Below are positions 24,760 through 39,527 of a stretch of 64,000 nt of DNA, in pieces; positions within the stretch are counted from its first letter, which is position 1, and every line of letters begins with the position of its first letter. The notes under the pieces are model-generated. The model had not been told where the DNA came from, made no database searches, and saw only the letters and a list, made by a program, of their open reading frames with translations. A program made the translations under genes and the position numbers. The DNA comes from Mycobacterium sp. UM_WGJ. Lineage in GTDB: Bacteria; Actinomycetota; Actinomycetes; Mycobacteriales; Mycobacteriaceae. The stretch lies in the NCBI RefSeq assembly GCF_000455125.1, contig NZ_AUWR01000008.1, positions 186,001 through 250,000 of the forward strand, in the 5' to 3' direction.

Positions 24760-25992
24760 CTAGCCGCCGAGGGACGGGCGGGGCATGGTGAATCGACTGG
24801 GCGCCACACGCAGAGCGCTGGACACGGTCTGGCGCCCCGTCGCCGCCGCGCCGCCCATCATGGCGGCCATCGGGCCCATACCCAATGCCGGAGCAGCCCC
24901 GGACAGCTCAGCCGCCGAACCCTCCGGCACCGCCAGTTCGCCGGCAAGCTCGTCTTCGGACAACCACACCGGATCGGTGGAGGCGGCTGCCACCGGGGTG
25001 GCGTCGGCCCAGGCCGGGGGCACCGACAACTGGCCCACCGGGACCACGTCGCTCCCCATGTGGGCCAGTACCGCGCGACGGTCCGCGACTTCAGACTCCG
25101 CTGCCAGCCTATCGTCGTTCACCAGGACGTGCCTGCCGTCTTTTGGCTCACCCGCGCCGGCGTCACCATGGGCGATCAGATAAGCGTTACCGGCCAGCGC
25201 GAAGGAACCCACCGACGAGATGGTCCGCGCTGTCTGCAAGGCGAACGAGGTCGGTCCCAGCACGATGTTGAGGGCAGCGATCACATCCAGCGGCAGCCAC
25301 GGATCCGCCTGAGCGGGCAGCGCCGCGGCCTGCCCGGTCGAGAGGCCGCCAAGCTGCTGCGGCAACTCGGCGAGCAGCGGCGAGAGCAGACTCTGCGTGT
25401 CCGAGGCAGCAGTGGAGCCCGCGGCACCGGCGACCGCGGCGGTCTGGGCCGCGCCGCCGACGGGGTTGGTTGTCTGCGGCGGCTGCTGAAACGGCGCCAA
25501 CTTCGTAGCCGTCGCGGCCGAGGACGCATACCCGAACATCGCCAGGGCGTCTTGGGCCCACATCTCGGCGTATGCGAACTCGGTGGCCGCGATCGCCGGT
25601 GTGTTCTGCCCGAAGATATTGGCTGCAGCCAGGCTCGCAAGCTGAGCACGGTTGGCTGTCACGACCACCGGTGGAACGATCGCGACACGCGCCTGCTCAT
25701 AGCTGGCCGCCGCCGCGCGCGCCTGGCCGGCGGCCCGTTCAACCTGGACAGCCGTTACCGCCGCCCACTCGGCGTAGGGCATTGCCGCTGCGGCCATCGC
25801 CGCAGACGCCCTGCCAGTCCAACCGTCGCCCTGTAAGTCCGCGATCACCGAGTGATAGCCGGTCGCAAATGCACTCAGTTGCGCAGCAAGCGCATCGTAA
25901 GCGGCCGCAGCGGCCAACAGTGGTCCCGAGCCGGGGCCGACATACATTTTCGCCGAGGTGATCTCGGGCGGAGACGTTCCAAAATCCAACAC
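24760..25992 (-). CDS. PPE family protein, PPE-SVP type (second of two tandem paralogues)
   Basis: A 410-residue PPE protein: PPE domain residues 1-180 (FGTSPPEITSAKMYVGPGSGP, turn DGWTGRASAAM), SVP motif VGQLSVPPAW around residue 320 and a C-terminal Met-rich stretch MGPMAAMMGGAA like that of its neighbour. The two proteins align along their whole length but are clearly diverged, so the duplication is old. Start GTG 25992 has GAGGGG about ten bases upstream. No PE or ESX genes nearby. Confidence 0.93.
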   Translation of the reverse strand: MLDFGTSPPEITSAKMYVGPGSGPLLAAAAAYDALAAQLSAFATGYHSVIADLQGDGWTGRASAAMAAAAMPYAEWAAVTAVQVERAAGQARAAAASYEQARVAIVPPVVVTANRAQLASLAAANIFGQNTPAIAATEFAYAEMWAQDALAMFGYASSAATATKLAPFQQPPQTTNPVGGAAQTAAVAGAAGSTAASDTQSLLSPLLAELPQQLGGLSTGQAAALPAQADPWLPLDVIAALNIVLGPTSFALQTARTISSVGSFALAGNAYLIAHGDAGAGEPKDGRHVLVNDDRLAAESEVADRRAVLAHMGSDVVPVGQLSVPPAWADATPVAAASTDPVWLSEDELAGELAVPEGSAAELSGAAPALGMGPMAAMMGGAAATGRQTVSSALRVAPSRFTMPRPSLGG

Positions 25993-26311: not shown

Positions 26312-28255
26312 TCAGACGGTGCGGGCCAGCCGGTGCGCCAGCAGTTCGGCGAAACGTGCCGGATCGTCAAGCGCCCCGCCCTCGGCCAACAGTGCAGTAC
26401 CGTAGAGCAACTCCGCGGTCTCGGCCAGGTCGGCGTCCTCGCCGCCCCGCTCGCCGTGCGCCTGGCGCAGACCGGTGACCAGCGGATGGCTCGGGTTGAG
26501 CTCGAGGATGCGCTTGCCGACCGGGACCTCCTGGCCGTTGGCGCGGTAGATGCGGGCCAACGCCGGCGTCATCTCGAAGGTGTCGGTGATCAGGCACGCA
26601 GGCGACTCGGTCAGCCGGGTCGACAACCGCACCTCTTTGACCTGCTCGGCCAAGGTCTGTTCCAGCCACGCGATCAGGTCGGCGAAGTCCTTCTGCTGCT
26701 CCTCGCGCTCGGCCTCGTGCGCAGCCTTGTCCTCCTCGGAGTCCAGATCCACCTCCCCCTTGGCGGTCGACTGCAGCGGCTTACCGGCGTACTCGGCGAC
26801 GGTGTTCACCCACACCTCGTCGACCGGGTCGGTCAGCAGCAGCACCTCGTAACCCTTGGCCTTGAACGCCTCCAGGTGCGGTGACTTCAGCAGCTGCTGG
26901 CGGGACTCGCCGGTGGCATAGAAGATCTGCTCCTGGCCGTCTTTCATGCGCTCGACATACTCGGCCAGCGTGGTCGGCTCGGAGTCGCTGTGCGTCGAGG
27001 CGAACGAGCTGATCGCCAGCAGCGCCTCCTGATTGTCGAAGTCGGACAGCAGCCCCTCTTTGACGACGCGACCGAACTCGGTCCAGAAGGTGCGGTAGTC
27101 ATCGGGCCGCTGTGACTGCAGCTCCTTGATGGTCGACAGCACCTTTTTGGTCAGCCGCCGCCGAATCGCGTTGATTTGGCGGTCCTGCTGCAGGATCTCC
27201 CGCGAGACGTTGAGGGACATGTCCGCCGCGTCGACGACACCCTTGACGAAGCGCAGGTATTCGGGCATCAGCTGGTCGCAGTCGCCCATGATGAACACGC
27301 GTTTGACGTACAGCTGCACGCCGACCTGGGCGTCCCGGTTGAACAGGTCGAACGGCGCGTGCGACGGGATGAACAGCAGCGCCTGGTATTCGAACGTGCC
27401 TTCGGCCTTCATCGCGATGACCTCAAGCGGGTCATCCCAGGCGTGCGCGATGTGCTTGTAGAACTCGTTGTATTCCTCTTGCGCGACTTCATCTTTGGGG
27501 CGCGCCCACAGCGCCTGCATCGAGTTCAGTGTCTGGGTTTCGACGGTGACCGTCTCGTCTCCACCGTCTTCGGTGGCCGGAGTCACCCGCTCGATCTGCA
27601 TCCGGATCGGCCAGGCGATGAAGTCGGAGTACTTCTTGACCAGACCCCGGATCGTCCACTCCGCGGTGTAGTCGTGCAGCGCATCGTCGGCGTCTTCGGG
27701 CTTGAGGTGCAACGTGATCGACGTGCCCTGCGGTGCTTGCTCGCCCGGGTCGACGGTTTCGATGGTGTAGGTGCCATCACCACTGGATTCCCACCGGATG
27801 GTCTCACTCTGACCGGCCTTGTGGGTGACCATCTCGACCTTGTTGGCGACCATGAACACCGAGTAGAAGCCGATCCCGAACTGGCCGATCAGCTCTTCGG
27901 ACGCCTTGGCGTTCTGCGCTTCACGCAGTTGCTGGCGCAGCTCGGCGGTGCCGGAGCGGGCCAGGGTGCCGATCAGGTCCACCACCTCATCGCGCGACAT
28001 GCCGATGCCGTTGTCGCGTACCGTCAGGGTGCGCGCCGCGGTGTCGACCTCGATCTCGATGTGCAGGTCGGAGGTGTCTGCCTCGAGGTCCTTGTTCCGG
28101 AACGACTCGAGTCGCAGCTTGTCCAGGGCGTCGGAGGCGTTGGAGATCAGCTCCCGCAGGAACGCGTCCTTGTTGGAGTAGACCGAGTGGACCATCAAAT
28201 CCAGCAGCTGCCGAGCCTCAGCCTGAAACTCCAGCTGCTCCACACGTGCGCTCAT
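26312..28255 (-). CDS. htpG: Molecular chaperone HtpG (bacterial Hsp90)
   Basis: A 647-residue Hsp90 homologue equivalent to Rv2299c. The N-terminal GHKL ATPase shows LRELISNASDALDKLR (catalytic Glu, Mg-binding Asn), DNGIGM, GQFGIGFYSVF and GTSITLHLK (lid and gamma-phosphate contacts); the middle domain has NVSREILQQ (ATP-contacting Arg); the C-terminal dimerisation domain completes the chain. It is an ATP-dependent cytosolic dimer assisting folding under stress. ATG 28255; TAAAAT on the minus strand lies about 9 bases upstream. A stand-alone transcription unit. Confidence 0.97.
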   Translation of the reverse strand: MSARVEQLEFQAEARQLLDLMVHSVYSNKDAFLRELISNASDALDKLRLESFRNKDLEADTSDLHIEIEVDTAARTLTVRDNGIGMSRDEVVDLIGTLARSGTAELRQQLREAQNAKASEELIGQFGIGFYSVFMVANKVEMVTHKAGQSETIRWESSGDGTYTIETVDPGEQAPQGTSITLHLKPEDADDALHDYTAEWTIRGLVKKYSDFIAWPIRMQIERVTPATEDGGDETVTVETQTLNSMQALWARPKDEVAQEEYNEFYKHIAHAWDDPLEVIAMKAEGTFEYQALLFIPSHAPFDLFNRDAQVGVQLYVKRVFIMGDCDQLMPEYLRFVKGVVDAADMSLNVSREILQQDRQINAIRRRLTKKVLSTIKELQSQRPDDYRTFWTEFGRVVKEGLLSDFDNQEALLAISSFASTHSDSEPTTLAEYVERMKDGQEQIFYATGESRQQLLKSPHLEAFKAKGYEVLLLTDPVDEVWVNTVAEYAGKPLQSTAKGEVDLDSEEDKAAHEAEREEQQKDFADLIAWLEQTLAEQVKEVRLSTRLTESPACLITDTFEMTPALARIYRANGQEVPVGKRILELNPSHPLVTGLRQAHGERGGEDADLAETAELLYGTALLAEGGALDDPARFAELLAHRLARTV

Positions 28256-28409
28256 AAGTCCCGAATTTTAGCGACGGCCCCATCGCGTTCTTCGGGGGGC
28301 CACGGCACGCCCGACGGCGCCACGACGGCCGCGGACCGCGTCTTTACCCAACCTTGACCAGCTGTTGAATCAACCCCCCGACGATTGCCACGTGACTACC
28401 ATTCAAGCC

Positions 28410-31400
28410 GTGGAGCTGGGGGTTTTGGGACCTCTTCAAGCCCGGCGGGACGGCGCCCCGGTCGCAATCCCGGGCGCCAAACCGCGTGCGATCCTCACGC
28501 TGCTCGGTCTGCACGGTGGTGCGGTCGTGTCAGCCGAAACGCTGATCGATCTGCTCTGGGGTGATGCGCCGCCGCGTACCGCGGCCAAGGCGCTGCAGAC
28601 GCACATCTCCTCGTTGCGCCGGGCGTTGGGCGATGGCTTCGTCCTCACCGAGGGCACGGGCTGGATCCTCAACACCACCGAGGTGGATGCCCCGCGCTAC
28701 AAGCGGGCCATCAAGGCCGGACGAGACGCCGCGGTAGCCGGCGATACCGGTCAAGCGGTGGTCCGCTTCGAAGAGGCGCTGGGCCTGTGGCGCGGAACTC
28801 CGGAACTGCCCGATTCCCGCCGAGGCATCTCGGAAAGGACGCGCTGGCTCGAGGGCCACGCTGCCCTGGTCGAGGACCGTGCCGACGCGTTGCTGGCGAC
28901 GGGCCGGGCCGCCGAGATCGTCGGCGAGCTGGAAGCCGCGGTGGCAGACGCACCGTTGCGCGAGCGGCGATGGGCCCAGCTGATGCTGGCGCTCTACCGC
29001 GCCGGCCGGCAGGGTGACGCGCTGGGCGCGTATCAGCGAGCCCGGTCGCTGCTCGCCGACGATTTGGGGGTCGATCCCGGGCCGGAGCTTCGACGGCTGG
29101 CCGCCGCGATCGTTGCCCAAGACGCCGCACTCGACCACCCCGCAGCCCAGCAGCTTCGGTCGGTGACCCGCGCGGTGACATTTCTGCTCACCGATATCGA
29201 GGGCTCGACCGCCGCGTGGGAAGCCGATGCCGACGCCATGGCGACAGCGCTCGCGCGCCACGACGAACTCGTCGAGCAGGTGGTCACCTCCCGCGGCGGC
29301 CGGCTCATCAAAACCCGTGGCGAAGGCGATGCCACCTTCTCGGTCTTCGACCGGCCCTCAGCGGCGGCCGCCGCGGCTATCGAACTCCAAGACGCAATCC
29401 TGCACGAGCCGTGGGCTTTGCGTGAACCCATGCGGATCAGGATCGCCCTGCACACCGGCGAGGTAGAGCTGCGCGACGGTGACTATTTCGGTCGCGCGGT
29501 CAACCGTGCCGCCCGTCTGCGGTCGCTGGCCGCCGGGGGCCAGATTCTGTGCTCCGGCGCGACGGCCGAGCTCGTCATCGACACCCTGCCCGACGACGTC
29601 GGCCTCGCCGACCTCGGGATGCGTGCGCTGCGTAACCTGCCGCGCCCGGAGCACGTATTCGAGCTTCGCCTCCAGACCGCCGAGCGAGTCGAGGAGACCG
29701 TCGACGCGCCTCTGGAGCGTCCCGAGCTTCCCGCGGTACTGACCGGTCCCGGTCGGTTCGTGGGGCGCGGCCTGGAACTGGAGCGACTCGCCTCCGCATG
29801 GCAGGCCGCGCTCGCGGGTGGCATTCACGCCATGCTGATTGCCGGTGAACCCGGCGTGGGCAAGACACGCCTGTCCGGCGAGTGGGCGCAACAGGCCTTC
29901 AAGCAAGGCGCCGTCGTGCTGTACGGCCGATCCGACGAGGACCTCGGTGCGCCCTATCAGCCGTTCGCCGAAGCACTGCGTTCGCTCGTCCCCTGCATCG
30001 GCGGACACAGACTGCGGGGATTGCGGGGCGTTGAAGCACTACTTCCGTTGATTCCTGGTCTGACCGAGGTACTCCCCGATCTGTCCGCGCCGCCCCGCGC
30101 CGACCCCGACACCGAGCGTTATGCGCTTTTCGACTCCGTGGTCGCGCTTTTGGAACTCGCCTCTGCCAGTGCGTCCATCGTGCTGATACTCGACGATCTG
30201 CACTGGGCGGCCAAGCCGACGCTGTTGCTGTTGCGCCATCTGCTGCGCTTCGGTGATCACACCCGAGTGCAGATCGTCGCGACCTACCGCAACACCGACC
30301 TCGATCGATCCCATCCTCTGGCGGCGATGCTCGCCGATCTTCACCGGGACGGCACCGCAGACCGCCTTGCGCTGAGCGGCCTTGGTGCCGACGATGTGAG
30401 CGCCTATGTCGTCGATGCCGGGTACGACGATGAACAGCTGGCCCGGGCGCTGGCCTCGGTCACCGGCGGGAACCCGTTCTTTTTGATCCAGGCACTGCGG
30501 CATGTGGACGAAAGTGGCGGGGTCTGGGATCCCAACACCTTGCCGCAGGGGGTTCGTGAAGCCGTGAGCCGCAGGCTTTCGCGGCTTCCGGCGGAGACCA
30601 ACAAGGCCCTTGCCGCCGCCGCCGTGGTGGGCAGCCGCTTCGCGGTGGACCTCGTGGAGCGGGTGGTCGAAGAAGACCTCGTCGACGCTTTCGACGAGGC
30701 CTGCAAGGCCGGCATCGTCATCGAAGAGTCCGGCGGGCGGTACCGGTTCAACCACGCCCTCGTCCGGCAGGCGCTGATCGCCGAGCTGGCCTCGGTGCGG
30801 CGCATGCGACTGCACCAACGTATCGCCATCACACTGGAGTCCATGCCCGGCGCAGACGAGGAGCTGCTGGCGGAACTGGCGTATCACTACTTCGAATGTG
30901 CGTGGGCGGGAAACGCGGCCAAGGCCGTCGAGTATTGCCGACGAGCCGCGGATCAGGCGATGTCTCGCCTGGCCTACGAAGGCGCCGCCGATCTGTACGA
31001 CCAGGCGCTGCACGCACTGGAGGAGATCGACGACGAGTTGCCCGATCGCGCCGATCAGACCGCCGATCTGCTGATCGCGCGCTGCGAGGCGCTGCTCGCC
31101 GCGGGAGAGGTGGCATCGGCCACCCATGCGTTCTCGCAATTGCAGGCAGCGACAGTCGATTCGGCTCGCCTGGCGGCGTGGGCGACATGTTTTGACGGCC
31201 AGCTGTCGATGCTGGTGCATCCGGAACGATTGGACGAGATCGAGGCTGCGCTGAGCGTGGCCGCCGACGCGCTGGCCAGGTTGGGCGATGCCGAAGGCCA
31301 AGCAAAGGCCCACACTGTACGGGCCGGATGCCTTGCGCGCCTTGGACGAATCGGCGACTGCGAGATCGCCCTCGACAGCGCGCTGACCGCAGCTCGGCAC

Positions 31401-34400
31401 GCCCGTGAACACCGTCGCGTGAACGCGGTGCTGGCGGGAGCGCCCCTGGCGGCCCTGTGGGGCCCGAACCCGGTTCCGCGCGCCGGCGGGCGTTGTCTTG
31501 ACGTGGTGCGACTGTTGCGCATCACGACGGACTCCCCTGCGGTCGAGGTGACGTCGACGCGATGCCAAGCCGTGTTGGAGGCCTTCCGCGGCCGGGCCGC
31601 CACCGCCCGACGAATGATCGACTCGGCGCGGCGCACGGTGACCGAAATCGGCCTGCGCCATGCCCTGCTCGAGGTTGAGCAGTTCGCCGGAATCATTGAG
31701 CTGGTCGTCGACGAGCCCGGTGACGCCGAGCCACATCTTCGTCAGGCCTATCAGGGCTTTCGCCGCATGGGACTGGACGCCGACACCGCCGAGACCGCTG
31801 CCCTGTTGGGCCGTACCTGCCTGGCTCTCGGCCGAGACGTCGAGGCCGAGGAGTTGTGCACCGAGAGTGAGCGTCTCGCCGGCCACGCGCTGAAGGCGTC
31901 GATCGCCTGGCGCACGCTTCGGGCGCTGCTGTTGACGCGACGCGGGGATCATGCCGCCGCCCGGCGGACGGCCGAGTCCGCGGTCGCCCTGGCTGAACGC
32001 ACCGACGCCTTGGTCGACCACGGCGATGCCTGTCTGGCCCTGGCGACGGTGTTGAATGCCGCCGGCGACGGTGCGGGAGCGCGGGCCGCCGCGGAGCGAG
32101 CGACGGGACTCTACGAGCGGAAAGGCGCCGAGGCGCTTGCCGCCAAGGCGCGCGAGATGTTGGACGAACGGGGGTGCGACCGCGACGACAGCCACGTGGC
32201 GATCGCCGAACTCGAGGCGCGGCAGGCGGAGCCCGAGAAGGCACGTCCTCGACTGCCGCTGGGAAACTTGGCAGGCGCGGTGGCCAAACACTGGCGGGAA
32301 AGGTTCGCGGCGCGTGATTGGGCCGCCATGACAGCTATCGCGGCCGACGATATCTGCACCGATGACCGGCGGGGCGTGGTGGGCGCCGGGGTCCGACGCG
32401 GGCGAGATGTCGCAATCGCCGACATGCGGGTGCTCGCCGAGCTTGATACGAACATGATGTCCACAGTCGTGGCCACCCGCGGCGAGCGTCTCGCCCTCTG
32501 CCTTGACCGACTGTCGGAGCACGATCCCCGGCCCGACGCGTTTCACGGCGAGATACTCAGCCTCGTCGAGATCGACACCGACGGACGGCTCGCGGCCGGT
32601 GTCATCTTCGAGGTTGACGACTTCGCTGACGCCCTGGCCGAACTCGACGCGCGCTATCTCGCCGGCGAAGCCGCCGCCTGCGCACACGCGTGGTCGGTGA
32701 TAACGGCGGCTTTCGGTGCGATGAGTAGACGCGAAATGCCTCCGACCGCGCCCGGCTTCACCGACGTAGACCGCCGTACGCTGGCGGCGGTCGGGTCCGC
32801 AGACCTGATGGCATACCTCAGCGTCGCGCTGAAAGACACGGCACACAACACCATTTACGTCGAAGCCGTGCATCGGCTGACCGACCGCGGCGCGGTGATC
32901 ACCCACGTAGCCAAAGGGAGTTCGCAGGACGGGCTGGACGCCGAGTGGCGCGTTGTCGATACCCTCACGATCGACGGCGATCTCATCAGCCACTGCGAGA
33001 TGTTCGACGAGGCAGATCTCGACGCGGCTCTTGCGCGCTTGGACGAACTGCACCCGCAGCCGCAGCGGCTGCAGAACGCGGCAAGCCAGGTGTCGGAACG
33101 CGTCCTGACGCACTTCGCGGCCCACCAATGGGACGCCCTGGCGACCGTATTGGCCGAGGATTACCACTACGTCGATCACCGAAGCGTGGTGAATGCAGGG
33201 ATTCGACACGGTCGAGATGCAGCAGTCGAGAATCTGCGCGTTGTCGCGAATCTCGGCATCTCAGACCTCAACACCACCGTCATCGCGACCCGGGGCGAGC
33301 GACTCGTGCTGACCCGCAGCGGCTATTCGTTCCGAGATCAAGGACCCGGGGCTTTCGGCGGTGAACAACTCGATGTCGGTGAGATCGATGAGGAGGGGCG
33401 GCTGGTGGCGAGCGTTACGTTCGACTGCGATGACTTCGACGCCGCCATCGCCGAACTGGACGCCCGTTACCTGGCCGGCGAGGCGAGCGCCTGCGCACGC
33501 GCGTGGTCGGTCATAGCGGCCGGCTATGCAGCATTCAACCGACACGACTTTCCCGATCTCGACTGGGTGAACATCGATCACCGTCGCGCGCGGGCGTTCG
33601 CACCCGGTGAATTGACGGCGTATATGCGCGCGACATGGGATCTAGCGCCTGACGTCGGGGGGTACAGCCAGGCCGTGCATCGGCTGAGCCCCCTGGGCGC
33701 GGTCGTCACCCACGTGGTGCGCGGTACCTCACACGAGGGGTTCGAGGCCGAATGGCGCGAAGTCGTTCTGCTCACGGTTGAGGGCGAAATGATCAGCCGC
33801 TGCGAAGTATTCGACGAGGCCGACCTGGACGCCGCGCTCGCCAAATTCGACGAGCTGAGCCGGTCGAGTCCGACGCTGGAGAACGCAGCGACCCGAACCT
33901 GCGTACGCATTGCCGAGGCATTCGACCGCCGTGACGCGGAAGCGATCTTCGCGCTTGCCGACGACGACGGCCGCTACGAGGATCGGCGGAAAGGCCTGCG
34001 CTCGGTCCTCGACGGCCCCGAGCGGCGGAAAGTCATCGACGCCACGCTGCAGACGGTCCCGAGCACCTGGCGGTTGGAGGTCGAACCGATCGCAGTCCGG
34101 GGATCTCGGCTCTCGCTGACCCGCGACTGTTATCGCGACGCCGGTGATCCCGATCGAACCGTCCTCGTCGAGATATTGCATCTCGTGGAAGTCGACACCA
34201 CCGGTCTTATGCAGCACACGGTCACATTCGATCTCGACGACATCGACGCTGCCCTCGCCGAGCTCGACGCCCGTTACCTCGCCGGCGAAGCGGCCGGTTA
34301 CGCGCAGACGTGGTCGCTCGTCACCGACGCGTATGCCGGTTTCAACCGGCGCGAGGTCTTTCCAACCACGCCGGACTGGATCAGCATCGACCACCGACGG

Positions 34401-34676
34401 GGAGCGGGCTTCGAGTCCGGCGACATGATCGCCTACCTGGAGGCCGCCTGGGCCGATTCGCCGGACACCACCATCCACATCGCGGCTGTGCATCGACTCA
34501 GCCAGATCGGCGCCGTCGTCACCCATGTGGCGCAAGGGATCTCACAAGACGGTTTCGCCGCCGAGTGGCGCGATATCGTCGTCATGACTGTCGACGGCCG
34601 CCGGGTCAACCGTTCTGAACTGTTCGACGGGGACGATCTCGACGCCGCGCTGAGCCGGTTCGACGAACTCAGTTGA
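28410..34676 (+). CDS. Giant multidomain regulator: SARP/BTAD - class III cyclase - ATPase - TPR - three NTF2-like double modules
   Basis: A protein of 2,088 residues. Order: OmpR-type winged helix (about 1-90; LIDLLWGDAPPRTAAKALQ), BTAD domain (about 95-240; LGVDPGPELRRLAAAI), class III nucleotide cyclase (about 255-415; metal Asps in FLLTDIEGST and GEGDATF, base-recognising Lys in KTRGEGD, transition-state Asn/Arg in VNRAARLRS, so probably active), an AAA/STAND ATPase (Walker A GEPGVGKTRL about 479, Walker B VLILDDLHW about 591), helical TPR-like repeats (about 780-1270) and three repeats of about 268 residues (1284-2088). GTG 28410 is chosen because TACCAT at 28397-28402 lies 7 bases before it and the SARP domain starts there. 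The cyclase-ATPase-TPR core is known from mycobacterial LuxR-type regulators; here the DNA-binding domain is N-terminal and no LuxR domain exists. Confidence 0.9.
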   Translation: MELGVLGPLQARRDGAPVAIPGAKPRAILTLLGLHGGAVVSAETLIDLLWGDAPPRTAAKALQTHISSLRRALGDGFVLTEGTGWILNTTEVDAPRYKRAIKAGRDAAVAGDTGQAVVRFEEALGLWRGTPELPDSRRGISERTRWLEGHAALVEDRADALLATGRAAEIVGELEAAVADAPLRERRWAQLMLALYRAGRQGDALGAYQRARSLLADDLGVDPGPELRRLAAAIVAQDAALDHPAAQQLRSVTRAVTFLLTDIEGSTAAWEADADAMATALARHDELVEQVVTSRGGRLIKTRGEGDATFSVFDRPSAAAAAAIELQDAILHEPWALREPMRIRIALHTGEVELRDGDYFGRAVNRAARLRSLAAGGQILCSGATAELVIDTLPDDVGLADLGMRALRNLPRPEHVFELRLQTAERVEETVDAPLERPELPAVLTGPGRFVGRGLELERLASAWQAALAGGIHAMLIAGEPGVGKTRLSGEWAQQAFKQGAVVLYGRSDEDLGAPYQPFAEALRSLVPCIGGHRLRGLRGVEALLPLIPGLTEVLPDLSAPPRADPDTERYALFDSVVALLELASASASIVLILDDLHWAAKPTLLLLRHLLRFGDHTRVQIVATYRNTDLDRSHPLAAMLADLHRDGTADRLALSGLGADDVSAYVVDAGYDDEQLARALASVTGGNPFFLIQALRHVDESGGVWDPNTLPQGVREAVSRRLSRLPAETNKALAAAAVVGSRFAVDLVERVVEEDLVDAFDEACKAGIVIEESGGRYRFNHALVRQALIAELASVRRMRLHQRIAITLESMPGADEELLAELAYHYFECAWAGNAAKAVEYCRRAADQAMSRLAYEGAADLYDQALHALEEIDDELPDRADQTADLLIARCEALLAAGEVASATHAFSQLQAATVDSARLAAWATCFDGQLSMLVHPERLDEIEAALSVAADALARLGDAEGQAKAHTVRAGCLARLGRIGDCEIALDSALTAARHAREHRRVNAVLAGAPLAALWGPNPVPRAGGRCLDVVRLLRITTDSPAVEVTSTRCQAVLEAFRGRAATARRMIDSARRTVTEIGLRHALLEVEQFAGIIELVVDEPGDAEPHLRQAYQGFRRMGLDADTAETAALLGRTCLALGRDVEAEELCTESERLAGHALKASIAWRTLRALLLTRRGDHAAARRTAESAVALAERTDALVDHGDACLALATVLNAAGDGAGARAAAERATGLYERKGAEALAAKAREMLDERGCDRDDSHVAIAELEARQAEPEKARPRLPLGNLAGAVAKHWRERFAARDWAAMTAIAADDICTDDRRGVVGAGVRRGRDVAIADMRVLAELDTNMMSTVVATRGERLALCLDRLSEHDPRPDAFHGEILSLVEIDTDGRLAAGVIFEVDDFADALAELDARYLAGEAAACAHAWSVITAAFGAMSRREMPPTAPGFTDVDRRTLAAVGSADLMAYLSVALKDTAHNTIYVEAVHRLTDRGAVITHVAKGSSQDGLDAEWRVVDTLTIDGDLISHCEMFDEADLDAALARLDELHPQPQRLQNAASQVSERVLTHFAAHQWDALATVLAEDYHYVDHRSVVNAGIRHGRDAAVENLRVVANLGISDLNTTVIATRGERLVLTRSGYSFRDQGPGAFGGEQLDVGEIDEEGRLVASVTFDCDDFDAAIAELDARYLAGEASACARAWSVIAAGYAAFNRHDFPDLDWVNIDHRRARAFAPGELTAYMRATWDLAPDVGGYSQAVHRLSPLGAVVTHVVRGTSHEGFEAEWREVVLLTVEGEMISRCEVFDEADLDAALAKFDELSRSSPTLENAATRTCVRIAEAFDRRDAEAIFALADDDGRYEDRRKGLRSVLDGPERRKVIDATLQTVPSTWRLEVEPIAVRGSRLSLTRDCYRDAGDPDRTVLVEILHLVEVDTTGLMQHTVTFDLDDIDAALAELDARYLAGEAAGYAQTWSLVTDAYAGFNRREVFPTTPDWISIDHRRGAGFESGDMIAYLEAAWADSPDTTIHIAAVHRLSQIGAVVTHVAQGISQDGFAAEWRDIVVMTVDGRRVNRSELFDGDDLDAALSRFDELS
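32259..34676 (+). repeat. Three tandem in-frame copies of a ~808-bp module inside the giant regulator
   Basis: Copies lie at about 32259-33067, 33068-33875 and 33876-34676. Each encodes two NTF2/SnoaL-like halves. Landmarks recur in order: an opening N/ENAA-helix, a VxATRGERL strand in copies 1 and 2 (VAVRGSRL in copy 3), ALAELDARYLAGEA followed by A-W/T-W-S, a HRLxxxGAVxTHV strand, and a closing ExFDExDLDAAL segment. Copies are diverged at DNA level, so this is an old duplication within the gene and not an assembly artefact. Confidence 0.85.
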
Positions 34677-34688
34677 TCGCGGCCGCCG

Positions 34689-36056
34689 TCACTGCGCCTG
34701 ACTCACCGACGACATGTGGAAGTCGGGGATCCGCAATGACGGCATCGACGCCCGGGTCGCCCAGTCGCCCCATTCCCGGGGCAGCGTCGGCTCGGCGATG
34801 CCGGCCTGGGTGGCGCGGCGCAGCAGGTCCAATGGGCTCTCGTTGAACCGAAAGTTGTTCACCGCCGCGGTCACCGCGCCGTCCTCGACCAGATAGACGC
34901 CGTCGCGGGTCAGTCCGGTCAGCAGCAGCGTGGTCGGATCCACCTCGCGGATGTACCATAGCGTGGTCAGCAGCAGCCCGCGCTCGGTCGAGGCGATCAT
35001 CTCGTCCATGCTGGCCGAACCGCCCGTCATCAACAGGTTGTCGGCGGCCAGGGCGACCGGGACGCCGAACTCGGCGGCCGCGGCGCGCGGGTAGGCCAGC
35101 GCGTTGATCACCCCACCGCGGATCCAGTCCACGCAGCCGATGTCCAAACCGTTGTCGAACACCGACACGGTCTCCGATGAAGTGCCGGTCGCCACGAACG
35201 GCGCGCACTCGAGCCCGAAGGCGTGTGGATCGGAATACAAGGTCAGGGGTAGTTCGGACAGCCGCTCCCCCACCCGGGTGCCACCGCCGGGTGCCGACAG
35301 CGCGGTTCGGCCTTCCTGGGCGCCGCGGCCACCCATCGTCCAACCGAGGTAGATCATCATGTCGGCGACAGTGGAAGGCGGCATCAGTGTCTCGTAGCGT
35401 CCGGCCGGCAATTCGACGCTGCGCGCAGCCCAGCCCAATCGCGTCGAGAGCTGTTCCAGCAGGGAATCCGTTGGCACGTCGACGAAATCCGGGGTGCTGA
35501 CGCCAGCCCAGGCGCTGGCGCCGGCGCGTTTGGCGTTGATCTCCACCGTTCCGGTGGGTTGGGTGAAACGTCGCCGCAACCCGGTCGAGGACGCCAGAAA
35601 CGTTGTCGCCACCTCGTGGCGGGCGAAACCATAAAGCTGGTCGGCGCCCCGAAAACCTCGACTCAGCGAGCCGGCCAGCTCGGCGAAGGCCTCCGCGCCG
35701 GTCTGCGGGACCGCGGCGTCCCAGTCGTCCGGCGCGGCCGTGCCGCCCAGCAGGTCCGCGGCGTCGCGAGCCTCCGGTGCGCCCGCAGCGGCCTCCGCCG
35801 AGGCCGTCACCAGCTCGGGAATCAGCGCCGGATCCACCTCCGCCGAGCTCAGCGAGCCGACCCGCGCTCCCTCGTCGTCGGAAACGATCGAGATGACCGT
35901 GGTGGTCCGGCTGCTCGACACCCCATTGGTGGTCATCGAGTTACCGGCCCAGCGCAGCGACGCCTCAGTCCGGTCGGTGACCAGCACGATGGTCTCGGTG
36001 TTACCACTCTTGGCCGCCGCCAGCGCGGTGTCGATGACGTCTTGCGGCCCGATCAT
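34689..36056 (-). CDS. tldE: TldE/PmbA-family metalloprotease partner (Rv2314c-like)
   Basis: A 455-residue protein of the U62/PmbA family. It lacks the HExxxH site, as expected for TldE, which forms a heterodimer around the catalytic TldD. The complex degrades or trims unfolded peptides and matures some peptide natural products in other bacteria; the mycobacterial substrate is unknown. ATG 36056 overlaps the TldD stop (ATGA). The C-terminal half carries the conserved SDPHAFGLECAPFVATGTSS and GLTRDGVYLVEDGAV blocks. It converges on the giant regulator with 12 bases between stops. Confidence 0.92.
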   Translation of the reverse strand: MIGPQDVIDTALAAAKSGNTETIVLVTDRTEASLRWAGNSMTTNGVSSSRTTTVISIVSDDEGARVGSLSSAEVDPALIPELVTASAEAAAGAPEARDAADLLGGTAAPDDWDAAVPQTGAEAFAELAGSLSRGFRGADQLYGFARHEVATTFLASSTGLRRRFTQPTGTVEINAKRAGASAWAGVSTPDFVDVPTDSLLEQLSTRLGWAARSVELPAGRYETLMPPSTVADMMIYLGWTMGGRGAQEGRTALSAPGGGTRVGERLSELPLTLYSDPHAFGLECAPFVATGTSSETVSVFDNGLDIGCVDWIRGGVINALAYPRAAAAEFGVPVALAADNLLMTGGSASMDEMIASTERGLLLTTLWYIREVDPTTLLLTGLTRDGVYLVEDGAVTAAVNNFRFNESPLDLLRRATQAGIAEPTLPREWGDWATRASMPSLRIPDFHMSSVSQAQ

Positions 36057-37567
36057 TCCCGGCCCCCCTCGCTGCGTGTGTTGAGCACGTTGATCCCCCG
36101 GAACAGTGCTGACGGGCAGCCGTGGCTGACCGCGGCGACCTGACCGGGCTGCGCCTTGCCGCAGTTGAACGCCCCGCCCAGCCGCCACGTCGAGGCGCCG
36201 CCGACAGCTTCCATCGCATTCCAGAAATCGGTGGTGGTCGCCTGATAGGCCACGTCGCGCAGTTGCCCGTCGAGGCGGCCGTCGCGAATACGGAAGAACC
36301 GTTGCCCGGTGAACTGGAAGTTGTAGCGCTGCATGTCAATCGACCATGAGCGGTCCCCGACGATGTAGATGCCGTTAGCCACCCGACCGATCAGATCTGC
36401 GGTAGACAGGTCCTCGGTACCGGGCTGCAGGGACACGTTGGCCATCCGCTGGATCGGGACATGGTGCGGCGAGTCGGCGTACGAGCACCCGTTGGAACGT
36501 GACTGCCCCAACCTGGGCGCGAACACCCGGTCCAGCTGATACCCCACGAAACGCCCGTCGCGCACCAGATCCCAGCTCTGGGCCGCCACGCCTTCGTCGT
36601 CATAACCGATGCTGGCCAACCCATAAGGCACCGTGCGGTCAGCGGTCACGTTCATCACCGGTGAGCCGTATTGCAACGTGCCGAGCTTGTCCGGGGTGGC
36701 GAACGACGTCCCGGCGTACGCCGCCTCATAACCGATGGCCCGGTCGTATTCGGTCGCGTGCCCGATAGATTCGTGGATGGTCAGCCACAGGTTGGTCGGG
36801 TCGATCACCAAGTCGGTTGGTCCGGCGGCAACGCTGGGCGACTTGACCTTCTCCGCGAGCAGCACCGGAAGCTCGCTCAGCTCGCTCGACCAGTCCCAGA
36901 TCTGGTCGCCGGCGACCGCTTCCCAACCGCGCGCGGTCGGCGGCGCCAGCGTTCGCATCGAGTCAAAGCCGTGCGGGCCGACGGTGACCGCCTCGCAGAC
37001 CGGCATGAGCCGCACCCGCTGCTGGGTGATCGCCGAGCCGGACGTGTCGGCGTAGAAGGTCTGCTCCTTGACCGCGGTGAGCGAGGCCGACACATGGTGT
37101 ACCCCGTGGGACGATAGGAGGCGGCCCGAGTAGTCCTCCAGCACGTCGATCTTGTCCGCGGCAGGCACGTCGAACGGATCGATCAGATAGTCCGACACCC
37201 ATGTCGCGTCGCGGTACACCGGCTCAGCCGCCAGCTCGACACGTTCGGTGTTGAGCACCGCCAGCGTCTTGGCGACCTGCACCGCTCGCCGGGCGGTGTC
37301 CGCCGCGACGCCCGGCGCCAGCTCGGCATGTGAGGCGAAACCCCAGGTGCCGTCGACCACCACCCGCACCGCGAAGCCGAGCTCACGGTTGAGCACGGCG
37401 GTCTCCAACTCACCGTCGCGTAGCCGGATGACCTCGGTGGCGATCCGGTGGATACGCAGGTCAGCATGCTCGGCACCGGCCGTTCTGGCCGCCGACAACG
37501 CGGCGTCGGCCAGCTCGTGGCGGGGCAGGGCCAGAAACTCGGCGTCGATCCCCCGGTTCGCTGTCAC
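36053..37567 (-). CDS. tldD: TldD-family metalloprotease, catalytic subunit (Rv2315c-like)
   Basis: A 504-residue zinc protease of the TldD/U62 family. The catalytic motif is LTIHESIGHATEYDRA (H-E-x3-H, residues about 250-265); a distal Cys/His region follows (NGCSYADSPHHVPIQRM). With TldE it forms the heterodimeric chamber protease. Minus-strand TACGGT at 37579-37574 lies six bases before the GTG 37567, predicting a leaderless mRNA. Translation continues into tldE through a 4-base overlap. Gene order tldE-tldD next to uspA matches M. tuberculosis. Confidence 0.95.
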   Translation of the reverse strand: MTANRGIDAEFLALPRHELADAALSAARTAGAEHADLRIHRIATEVIRLRDGELETAVLNRELGFAVRVVVDGTWGFASHAELAPGVAADTARRAVQVAKTLAVLNTERVELAAEPVYRDATWVSDYLIDPFDVPAADKIDVLEDYSGRLLSSHGVHHVSASLTAVKEQTFYADTSGSAITQQRVRLMPVCEAVTVGPHGFDSMRTLAPPTARGWEAVAGDQIWDWSSELSELPVLLAEKVKSPSVAAGPTDLVIDPTNLWLTIHESIGHATEYDRAIGYEAAYAGTSFATPDKLGTLQYGSPVMNVTADRTVPYGLASIGYDDEGVAAQSWDLVRDGRFVGYQLDRVFAPRLGQSRSNGCSYADSPHHVPIQRMANVSLQPGTEDLSTADLIGRVANGIYIVGDRSWSIDMQRYNFQFTGQRFFRIRDGRLDGQLRDVAYQATTTDFWNAMEAVGGASTWRLGGAFNCGKAQPGQVAAVSHGCPSALFRGINVLNTRSEGGRE

Positions 37568-37594
37568 CCATCCACCGTAACGACGTGCCGGAGG

Positions 37595-37622
37595 TTGACC
37601 TCGGAATAGGTGTCCATAATGA
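37595..37622 (+). promoter_or_regulatory. SigA-like promoter TTGACC-N16-TAATGA for DUF2804-uspA
   Basis: -35 TTGACC (37595-37600) and -10 TAATGA (37617-37622), 16-base spacer, with the expected start of transcription at about the GTG 37630. It supports leaderless translation from that GTG. The -10 deviates in its last base from TANNNT. Confidence 0.45.
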
Positions 37623-37629
37623 TCACGGC

Positions 37630-38646
37630 GTGACTGCGCCGCAGCGACTGGTTCAGGACGGTGTCCGCCACTACGGCAGGTTCGACGGGCGAGTCCGCAA
37701 CGTCAATCCCGTCGACGGGCACCGGGGTGTCGCGCGACTGTGGCGTGAGTTTCGGCTCAAGGAATGGATCGGTGTCGGCTTGATTCATCCCGAGATGTCG
37801 GGCGCGATGATCATGCAGGACGTCAAATACCTGGCCTCGTCGGAGCTGTTCGTCCACGATCAGGCCAGCGGTGTCCTGGTGGAGAAGAGCGCTCGGTTCC
37901 GGGGTGCCACCCTGGACCTGCCAGACGACCTGCTGCACGGCGGCCGCTGCCGAGTCAAGACGCGCCGCTACCTGCTCGCCTACGACTTCGACGCCGACAC
38001 CGGCACCATCGCGGTGCGGTTCGACTGTGCCGCAGACCGGCACGGGCCGGCGATCACCGGTGCGCTGACGCTTTACACCGATGGGGCCGCACCGCCGCTC
38101 AGCCTCAGCGCCAGGCTCACCCCGACGATGGACTACTACACGTTCAAACAGCCCTTCCCGGCTGACGGGGCGCTGACGGTCGGCGACCGCACCTACGTCT
38201 TCGATCCGGCACGCGACTTCGCCATCCTCGACGAACATCGTTCGCAGTTCCCGTATTCGACGACGTGGACGTGGGGCACGTTTGCCGTCCGCATGGCCGG
38301 TGGTGTGGTCGGGTCCAATTTCGTCGAGCGGCAGGAGTTCAGCGACGACGATGACGAGTCCTGCAACTGGGTTCCCGGTGGGGTCGAGCCGCTCGCGGGC
38401 GTCGAGTTCGCGGTCGAATCCGAGCACCCGCTGTCGAGCGCACAGGTCCGCGACCGTGACCGTCGCCTCGATGTGACGTTCACTCCGACCGGCCGCAAAG
38501 CGGTCAAGGCCAATCTGGTTGCCACCGGAATCGACTATTGGCAACTCGCCGGAACCTACCGGGGAACCGTGCGATCCTTGGCAGGAGAATGTTTCACCTT
38601 CGATCACGTGCCGGGGGTGCTTGAGCGGATGAAGGCCCGCTTTTGA
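37630..38646 (+). CDS. DUF2804-family protein coupled to uspA
   Basis: A 338-residue protein of the DUF2804 family (lipocalin/beta-sandwich-like, Trp/Tyr/Asp-rich strands such as TWTWGTFAVRMAGGVVGSNFVERQEF). The biochemical role of the family is unknown; there is no signal peptide. The GTG 37630 is preferred over GTG 37585 because of the promoter just upstream. Its stop overlaps the TTG start of uspA (TTGA), so the two are translationally coupled, suggesting a link to sugar uptake. In M. tuberculosis, as I recall, tldD and uspA are direct neighbours, so this gene is extra here. Confidence 0.8.
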   Translation: MTAPQRLVQDGVRHYGRFDGRVRNVNPVDGHRGVARLWREFRLKEWIGVGLIHPEMSGAMIMQDVKYLASSELFVHDQASGVLVEKSARFRGATLDLPDDLLHGGRCRVKTRRYLLAYDFDADTGTIAVRFDCAADRHGPAITGALTLYTDGAAPPLSLSARLTPTMDYYTFKQPFPADGALTVGDRTYVFDPARDFAILDEHRSQFPYSTTWTWGTFAVRMAGGVVGSNFVERQEFSDDDDESCNWVPGGVEPLAGVEFAVESEHPLSSAQVRDRDRRLDVTFTPTGRKAVKANLVATGIDYWQLAGTYRGTVRSLAGECFTFDHVPGVLERMKARF

Positions 38647-39527
38647 GTCCACGCGATCGCCGGGGCGTCCCGACGAGCCCAATGCTGGGTTACGCGCTGC
38701 TCGCTCCCAGCCTGTTCGGCGTGGTGGCATTCCTGCTGCTGCCGATGCTGGTTGTGGTGTGGCTGAGTCTGCACCGCTGGGACCTGCTGGGGCCGATCAG
38801 TTATGTCGGCGCGGAGAACTGGCGATCGGTGCTCACCGATCCGGTGTTCGGCAATTCCCTTGTGGTGACCGTGCTTTTCGTCGCCCTCGTCGTCCCGCTG
38901 CAAACCGCACTCGGGCTGGGCGTGGCGGTCCTGCTGGCCCGCGGGTTGCCCGGCAGCGCCGTGTTTCGCACCGTGTATGTGCTGCCGTGGATCTGCGCAC
39001 CCCTGGCCATCGCGGTGCTGTGGCGCTGGATTCTGAGCCCCACCGACGGCGCGGTGAGCACGGTGCTGGGGCATCGCATCGAATGGCTGACCGACCCTGG
39101 GCTGGCACTGCCGGTGACCTCGGCGGTGGTGGTGTGGACCAACGTCGGCTACGTGGCGCTGTTCTTCCTGGCCGGGATCCTGGCCATCCCCACCCAGGTG
39201 CTGTCGGCGGCGCGCATCGACGGGGCGAACGGGTGGCAGCGGTTCTGGCGGGTAACGCTGCCGATGCTGCGGCCCACCATGTTCTTCGTACTGGTCACCG
39301 GCGTGGTCAGCGCGGCCCAGGTGTTCGACACCGTGTACGCGCTGACCGGCGGCGGGCCCGGTGGCCGCACCGACCTGATCGCCCACCGCATCTATGACGA
39401 GGCGTTCGGGGCGGCTGCGATCGGCCGGGCCGCGGTGATGGCACTGGTGCTGTTCGCCGTACTGGTTTCAGTGACGGTCGTCCAGCAGCTTTCGTTGGGC
39501 CGGCGGGTCAGCTATGACCTCACGTAA
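38643..39527 (+). CDS. uspA: Sugar ABC transporter permease UspA (Rv2316-like)
   Basis: A 294-residue inner-membrane permease of the MalF type with six hydrophobic segments and the ATPase-docking EAA loop ARIDGANGWQRFWRVTLPML (residues about 190-209). In M. tuberculosis UspABC imports amino sugars. The likely start is TTG 38643, overlapping the DUF2804 stop; ATG 38682 would be shorter by 13 residues. Its partners uspB and uspC are not adjacent but lie 4.9 kb downstream. No transport ATPase is encoded nearby, as usual for systems sharing an MsiK-type ATPase. Confidence 0.92.
   Translation: MSPRDRRGVPTSPMLGYALLAPSLFGVVAFLLLPMLVVVWLSLHRWDLLGPISYVGAENWRSVLTDPVFGNSLVVTVLFVALVVPLQTALGLGVAVLLARGLPGSAVFRTVYVLPWICAPLAIAVLWRWILSPTDGAVSTVLGHRIEWLTDPGLALPVTSAVVVWTNVGYVALFFLAGILAIPTQVLSAARIDGANGWQRFWRVTLPMLRPTMFFVLVTGVVSAAQVFDTVYALTGGGPGGRTDLIAHRIYDEAFGAAAIGRAAVMALVLFAVLVSVTVVQQLSLGRRVSYDLT

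Follow-up and report, generated by a model that had tools for sequence, protein, structure and literature searches.

Within a stretch of 64,000 nucleotides from Mycobacterium sp. UM_WGJ (contig NZ_AUWR01000008.1, positions 186,001 to 250,000 of the forward strand; hereafter the window, with positions counted from its first letter), one open frame (28410..34676, +) encodes a giant regulator in which a SARP-type DNA-binding head, a class III nucleotide cyclase, a STAND-type ATPase and a TPR-like region are followed by three A-B doublets of NTF2 modules. The gene belongs to a genus-level family of giant regulators with variable arrays, of which it is a short representative. Head and engine are nearly constant across the family while the modules are diverse, and a nearly constant engine joined to an array that differs both between species and within one protein suggests a many-input chemical sensor. 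On balance, we favour the reading that these proteins are STAND-type switches in which a cassette-built, polyvalent array of NTF2 ligand pockets controls DNA binding and cyclic AMP (cAMP); ligand binding, coupling, outputs and cassette exchange are the parts of this reading that we infer.

A genus-level family with a nearly constant engine

The frame 28410-34676 is open over 2088 codons and, as an earlier sequence-only reading of this DNA had stated, yields a single chain of 2088 residues. The domain order given by that reading (SARP/BTAD, cyclase, STAND ATPase, TPR, NTF2) is borne out by Pfam matches and motifs, with TPR_12 and SnoaL_2 below their cut-offs. Indeed, four domains, all on the forward strand, score above the Pfam cut-off: the SARP winged-helix DNA-binding domain (Trans_reg_C, residues 24-75, 28479..28634), the BTAD domain (residues 92-234, 28683..29111, E 1.7e-37), the cyclase (Guanylate_cyc, residues 254-388, 29169..29573) and the STAND-type ATPase (AAA_16, residues 449-618, 29754..30263; 90.1 bits versus a cut-off of 32.6), in which Walker A and B motifs are present. 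The TPR-like region (residues 830-1262, 30897..32195, +) is matched by TPR_12 below the cut-off (18.7 versus 30.1 bits). The head combines an OmpR-type winged helix-turn-helix (wHTH) with a BTAD domain, as in SARP proteins of the AfsR/EmbR type, and its solved relatives are EmbR (2.5e-35) and AfsR (3.6e-34; AfsR-type PDB entries 8hvr, 8k60 and 8jke).

The tail is found well beyond this strain. Searched with tblastn, it occurs in one of the 31 genera of the window's family, where 29 of the 401 genomes sampled across that family carry it. Larger samples were screened with profile A1, scoring 6 to 8 first-look candidates per genome, a depth at which distant tails could be missed. The tail or its remnants were thus retrieved in 177 of 396 genomes of the genus (174 of the 362 good ones; fragments are counted in the 177), in 14 of 394 genomes of the class sample (1 of 137 genera) and in 21 of 298 genomes of the order sample, 20 of which lie within the genus, the last being a weak match of 64 residues elsewhere. 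The profile search in other genomes proposed by the earlier reading consequently recovered the tail, but not as the single odd tail which that reading had described: a genus family of variable arrays, with frames of up to 7523 amino acids, is the larger finding. Among 98 pattern-matching stretches, three relatives were confirmed, with whole genes of 2236 (Mycolicibacter engbaekii), 2395 (M. senuensis) and 2247 amino acids (M. heraklionensis), which suggests that the host is itself a Mycolicibacter. None of 72,556 plasmid records is matched by the tail in tblastn (E up to 1e-5), which speaks against a mobile origin.

The loci fetched for comparison (29 regions from 28 other tail genomes, plus a set chosen for long frames or cut ends) form an uneven sample. 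In it, 34 frames open with a recognised head and 33 continue into NTF2 modules, the frame of locus L034 being broken before them. These 33 head-tail frames carry from 2 to 22 B modules, and an extra A module opens the array in 30 of them. The longest frame seen (genome G696, contig C1:7793-30361) runs over 7523 residues from stop to stop and holds 24 A and 22 B modules, 46 in total. Such lengths are not merely draft artefacts, since a genome assembled in one contig (G741) has a frame of 5753 residues. A second subfamily, with approximately 50% identity in the TPR region, is found in at least 11 frames of 1965-3352 amino acids; its members include L062 (G177:C12), G390:C116, G483:C115, G493:C54 and G436:C193, whose tails match the A and B profiles weakly where examined.

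Whereas the arrays vary, the part preceding them hardly does. Mean identity of the 34 heads to the window protein reaches 90% for the cyclase (lowest 85%), 85% for the post-ATPase stretch, 82% for both the BTAD domain and the TPR region, and 81% for both the wHTH and the ATPase, falling to 48% in a 20-residue linker. The Walker A motif GEPGVGKT, the LDD of LDDLHW and the cyclase residues D262, K301, E305, D307, D358, N365 and R369 are invariant in 34 of 34 heads.

The earlier reading had called the cyclase apparently active. The solved class III relatives are 3mr7 and Ma1120, and D262, K301, D358, N365 and R369 align with their counterparts in 3mr7; to this extent the sequence agrees with the claim. 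The column of the second metal Asp, however, holds E305, and D307 sits two residues on in a two-residue insertion according to the alignments. Among the functional positions of this class are the two metal-binding Asp residues, the Lys/Asp pair for substrate specificity and the Asn/Arg pair. The cyclase thus looks competent by sequence, the second metal position (E305 or D307) excepted. In class III cyclases, two domains are needed to form the active site.

Arrays of old and distinct modules

The three A-B doublets of the window protein (residues 1286-1550, 1556-1819 and 1825-2088) agree with the three tandem double modules originally recognised. On the forward strand, sequence profiles place A1 at 32265..32657, B1 at 32658..33059, A2 at 33075..33470, B2 at 33471..33866, A3 at 33882..34277 and B3 at 34278..34673; a structural model of the first doublet also supports A1 and B1. 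In this model (predicted local distance difference test, pLDDT, 89.9; predicted template modelling score, pTM, 0.87), two NTF2-type halves appear, with helices on a curved mixed sheet, and are matched by ketosteroid isomerases (KSI) and SnoaL-like proteins in Foldseek comparisons against the pdb and pdb_via libraries. The whole-tail model is poor (pLDDT 54.9, alignment of four rows), and the predicted NTF2 folds are accordingly seen for two modules. Pfam SnoaL_2 stays below its curated cut-off for the whole protein (22.8 versus 27 bits) and is matched by 13 of 13 doublets of the A1 set at E up to 0.01. No sigma domain (sigma2 or sigma4) was found among the ten Pfam families matched at E up to 1. 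The window array is without the opening extra A module, which is intact in M. engbaekii (L002); approximately 23 residues that resemble the end of such a module precede A1 (32196..32264, +) and, from comparison with relatives, are an apparent leftover of it.

Modules of one chain are hardly more alike than modules of different chains. Over 287 doublets, mean identity is 47.4% within arrays and 46.3% between arrays, the nearest neighbour lies in another array for 272 doublets and in the same array for 15, and no pair of doublets within an array exceeds 88% nucleotide identity. Concerted evolution of the repeats, as expected from fungal NLRs, is ruled out by these last two observations. Order is mostly kept where arrays can be compared, although only seven array pairs share at least three matched doublets. 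Among these, L123 and G696 share eight (6 of 7 steps in order), L037 and L041 five (4 of 4), L043 and L049 four (3 of 3), and L122 and L123 three (1 of 2). Nor is the doublet generally the unit of inheritance. Indeed, among between-array pairs, 64 combine B modules above 72% identity with A modules below 50%, 14 show the reverse and 22 exceed 65% in both. Because the A-B pairing is mosaic, A and B modules appear to have been exchanged independently between arrays as cassettes. The modules are old and distinct. In 15 close pairs, non-synonymous and synonymous divergence (dN and dS) amount to 0.106 and 0.437 (dN/dS approx. 0.24), which indicates purifying selection in these pairs.

These results bear on the possibility that proteins, and not small molecules, are what the tail senses, with the regulator serving in non-self or stress recognition much as the NLRs of fungi do. 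There is a resemblance: both families have a STAND core followed by C-terminal repeats of varying number with hypervariable positions, and the present one is also patchy in occurrence and prone to gene decay. According to PMC4986451, the variable sites of fungal NLR repeats (HET-E/D/R type) lie on the binding face, and these arrays undergo concerted evolution and positive selection; here, by contrast, nearest neighbours mostly lie in other arrays and selection in the close pairs is purifying. Moreover, no PADLOC family of anti-phage defence proteins matches the protein at E up to 0.01, and a SARP head would denote a transcription factor rather than a killing effector. Together with the composition of the variable positions described below, this makes protein recognition unlikely in our view.

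Pocket-aligned positions and what they may mean

Column entropy over the 287 doublets is reproducible (split-half correlation 0.976) and, in module A, peaks at alternating positions along strands. For mapping we used a KSI sequence and 18 positions taken to line the tKSI pocket; MAFFT places 17 of the 18 on module A. Mean entropy at these 17 KSI-aligned positions is 2.35 versus 1.95 for the whole of A, and on beta4 and beta5 seven of the 17 reach a mean of 3.16 (range 2.48-3.66), against 0.15-2.75 in the alternate strand phase. Charged letters make up 4.5% at these seven positions, 29.6% over all A and 18.2% at other hypervariable positions. A face exposed to protein partners would hardly be so poor in charges.

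We then asked how the aligned positions behave in corresponding modules of different arrays, using 40 between-array pairs that were matched solely by the low-entropy positions of A (17 pairs at a stricter threshold). The seven positions were set aside as the sole test, since they had been chosen after the entropies were seen, and the comparison was repeated with all 17. Within arrays, the 17 positions differ in 64.4% of cases versus 46.8% at low-entropy A positions; in the matched pairs, they differ in 13.5% versus 15.0% (8.8% versus 11.5% at the stricter threshold). A set of 14 positions, which combines six from the seven with positions 112 and 114 and with six others included once the ranking was known, differs in 14.7% and other hypervariable positions in 34.1% in the matched pairs. 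Taken together, all hypervariable positions of A change 1.5 times as fast as the others in matched pairs and 1.84 times as fast within arrays. The strings formed by the seven letters are nearly all different (223 distinct among 240 complete ones), and none is repeated inside one array, whereas some, such as CTIIMIV, recur in different arrays. Among 40 gap-free matched pairs, 9 have identical strings and 32 share at least five of seven letters, versus 0 and 3 of 950 within-array pairs, although the matched pairs were selected here for more than 68% overall identity, a choice that works in favour of similarity.

Across species, a module thus tends to keep its pocket-aligned positions, whereas the other modules of one chain all have different ones. 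With this pattern, separate ligands seem to fit better than drift or an arms race. The multi-ligand sensor suggested by the sequence-only reading gains from this indirectly, through the behaviour of positions aligned to a KSI pocket. For protein recognition, conservation of the KSI-aligned positions between matched modules is a further difficulty.

It also counts against another explanation, in which the array serves, whatever its length, as a spacer or as a scaffold for oligomerisation while its modules drift. Such a role would account for the same head being followed by anything from 2 to 22 B modules, for the several broken or lost copies and for some hypervariable positions that change fast in matched modules (the 34.1% above). 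Drift is less easily reconciled with KSI-aligned positions as conserved as the scaffold, with the dN/dS of the close pairs and with seven-letter strings common to different species, and we regard the spacer as rather improbable.

Could the tail instead be a chain of enzymes, akin to isomerases or epoxide hydrolases, that is joined to a regulator? Its top fold matches include ketosteroid isomerases as well as Lsd19 and MonBI-MonBII, in which NTF2 domains are tandem or paired, and the column of the KSI general base Asp38 corresponds to D34, which is Asp in 99% of the 287 doublets. The oxyanion hole of KSI is formed by Tyr14 and Asp99. These partners are not kept: the aligned position 10 is Tyr in 9% and position 99 Asp in 9% of the doublets. 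Differing pockets in all modules of one chain would, furthermore, not suggest one pathway. The tail also goes with the regulator, because 64 of the 65 genomes in which the TPR region was found (among 148 of the genus) are also on the tail list, as judged by comparing the lists by eye; in the sole genome with TPR and no tail (G441), the TPR match lies at a contig end. Conversely, four tail-list genomes of the same handle range are without a TPR match (G440, G457, G472 and G508), and three of them hold fragments only. An enzyme chain appears to us the least probable of these alternatives, and D34 may be a salt-bridge residue.

Other conserved positions of the doublet can be noted. D34, R36 and R72 of A are 99-100% conserved, and B modules keep a charged or aromatic set at positions 169 (D, 96%), 171 (R, 98%), 203 (H, 91%), 228 (W, 93%), 243 (R, 87%) and 245 (E, 97%).

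A division of labour, with A as the recognition part and B as the passive one, was dropped. Originally, 14 of 24 hypervariable A positions were specificity-like versus 0 of 15 in B; when A alone served to define the pairs, the counts were 7 of 24 and 0 of 15 (p 0.03). In a symmetric control, however, B behaves alike when pairs are defined on B, and the asymmetry results from how pairs were defined.

Several observations weigh against an array of ligand pockets. The other ten KSI-aligned positions have a mean entropy of 1.79, below the A mean of 1.95; the seven-position set is post hoc; and the pocket mapping is a sequence alignment to a KSI sequence and pocket list, ambiguous by one residue on beta6. 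Taken alone, the seven positions differ in 84.3% within arrays (versus 46.8% at low-entropy positions) and still in 23.2% in matched pairs versus 15.0% for the scaffold; in pairs defined on the rest of A, they change 1.24-1.40 times as fast as that rest. At the strictest threshold (17 pairs), hypervariable A positions change 1.88 times as much as low-entropy ones, as they do within arrays (1.84). Several species retain fragments only, and the gene is therefore dispensable. Finally, the NTF2 tails of ECF41/SigJ sigma factors act via intramolecular contacts, according to PMC7730460, and the tail described here could likewise work without ligands.

The extent of this decay was assessed by re-examining 15 low-scoring or unclear genomes: nine hold fragments only (G440, G508, G472, G626, G606, G648, G676, G553 and G529), one a partial copy (G634) and one none (G441), and four have weak matches inside frames of 1756-2242 amino acids (G436, G546, G551 and G643). 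The loci of these nine genomes (L163-L167, L170 and L173-L175) are short array relics, signs of repeated loss. In addition, L003, L034, L035 and L038 are split into two or three frames and L061 is a remnant. The breaks in these four split copies are frame changes in the head or the array, for which decay and assembly error are alike possible.

Locus, known relatives and a proposed switch

The longest open reading frame (ORF) in the frame of the giant gene starts at TTG 28365. An in-frame GTG at 28392 opens the stretch VTTIQAVELGVLGPL, and because this stretch is common to the relatives L003 and L004, GTG 28392 is a likelier start than 28410. An ORF of 1056 amino acids on the opposite strand (30039-33209) overlaps the giant gene and is probably a shadow of the kind usual for G+C-rich DNA. 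From sequence matches, the neighbours are htpG (Hsp90; 26312..28255, -), separated by 154 bases from the giant gene and transcribed divergently from it, and, downstream, a convergent tldE/pmbA-like metallopeptidase gene (34689..36188, -) followed by a tldD-like one (36053..37567, -). The giant gene has these neighbours in the window as well as in 7 of the 39 loci fetched (L002, L003, L004, L034, L038, L045 and L047); they had no match in the stretch covered for the other 32, some flanks being short. Accordingly, a functional link to htpG, in which Hsp90 would serve the STAND protein, is not upheld; no other recurrent neighbour emerged among the 30 best-shared flank ORFs, which all belong to the htpG-tldE group of loci. 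Near htpG lies a PPE family gene with a PPE-SVP C-terminus (24763-25992, -). An ORF of 388 amino acids (37564-38730, -) is matched by neither Pfam nor NCBIfam (E up to 1e-5), and a relative with 57-74% identity occupies a similar place in L002-L004.

The engine is of a known kind and, as far as our searches go, the polyvalent NTF2 array is new. Mycobacterial LuxR regulators of the Rv0386/Rv1358 type share the succession of class III cyclase, ATPase and TPR-like region; they have a LuxR DNA-binding end instead of SARP and are not known to carry an NTF2 array. The polyether epoxide hydrolases Lsd19 and MonBI-MonBII give the best Foldseek matches over the whole doublet. However, these are enzymes, which use an Asp/Glu catalytic dyad, with 12-16% identity to the doublet, and their domain arrangement differs from it, since the root-mean-square deviation over the whole doublet is 11-13 A. 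Sigma factors of the ECF41/ECF56 groups (SigJ, SigG1) also fuse an NTF2/SnoaL_2 domain to a transcription regulator; according to the available part of PMC7730460, they differ in being sigma factors rather than SARP-STAND proteins and in having a single SnoaL_2 extension that acts through intramolecular contacts, and the word ligand is absent from that part. In literature searches, the tail or array family is undescribed in the titles and abstract starts among the matches listed, most subscription papers and preprints lying outside their scope, and the available parts of PMC2447327 (which has the terms in its reference list only), PMC3388012 and PMC10551460 contain nothing on the tail.

The closest model for the switch itself is AfsR of Streptomyces coelicolor, which has the same SARP head (wHTH and BTAD), STAND ATPase and TPR region. 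It is not known to have either the cyclase between SARP and ATPase or the NTF2 array; its chain in 8k60 has 993 residues. In PMC10936776, NOD and TPR are described as inhibiting the SARP domain, and ATP binding as relieving the inhibition. By analogy, the NTF2 array could be the inducer sensor, with SARP and cyclase as outputs. In the resting state, the ATPase and TPR region would keep both the SARP head and the cyclase switched off, much as NOD and TPR restrain the SARP domain of AfsR. Every NTF2 module would provide a separate pocket, probably suited to a different small and mostly apolar molecule, and one or several filled pockets would alter the contact of the tail with the TPR/ATPase core, leading to ATP binding and assembly. 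Assembly could then gather the SARP heads on DNA and pair the cyclase domains in active dimers, so that the output would be transcription and cAMP. As A and B cassettes are gained, lost and exchanged, arrays would be rebuilt, and each species would thereby come to have a particular set of pockets on a common engine. More tentatively, and short of an even chance in our estimation, the protein could be a polyvalent chemoreceptor on one chain, with up to approximately 46 NTF2 pockets for one metabolite each, a constant STAND engine, two outputs and a repertoire edited by A/B cassette exchange. It would then be a soluble and combinatorial system for recognising small molecules, of which our searches gave no description.

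Should the switch reading hold, a single regulatory engine would carry a library of distinct binding pockets in the mycobacteria of this genus, and one protein could report many chemicals. The family would then offer a test case for STAND switches that read many inputs, and several hundred diversified NTF2 pockets, some with strings common to different species, which could be of use for ligand finding and biosensor design. It would also mean that, in this genus, open frames of very large size, here up to 7523 residues, can be regulators.

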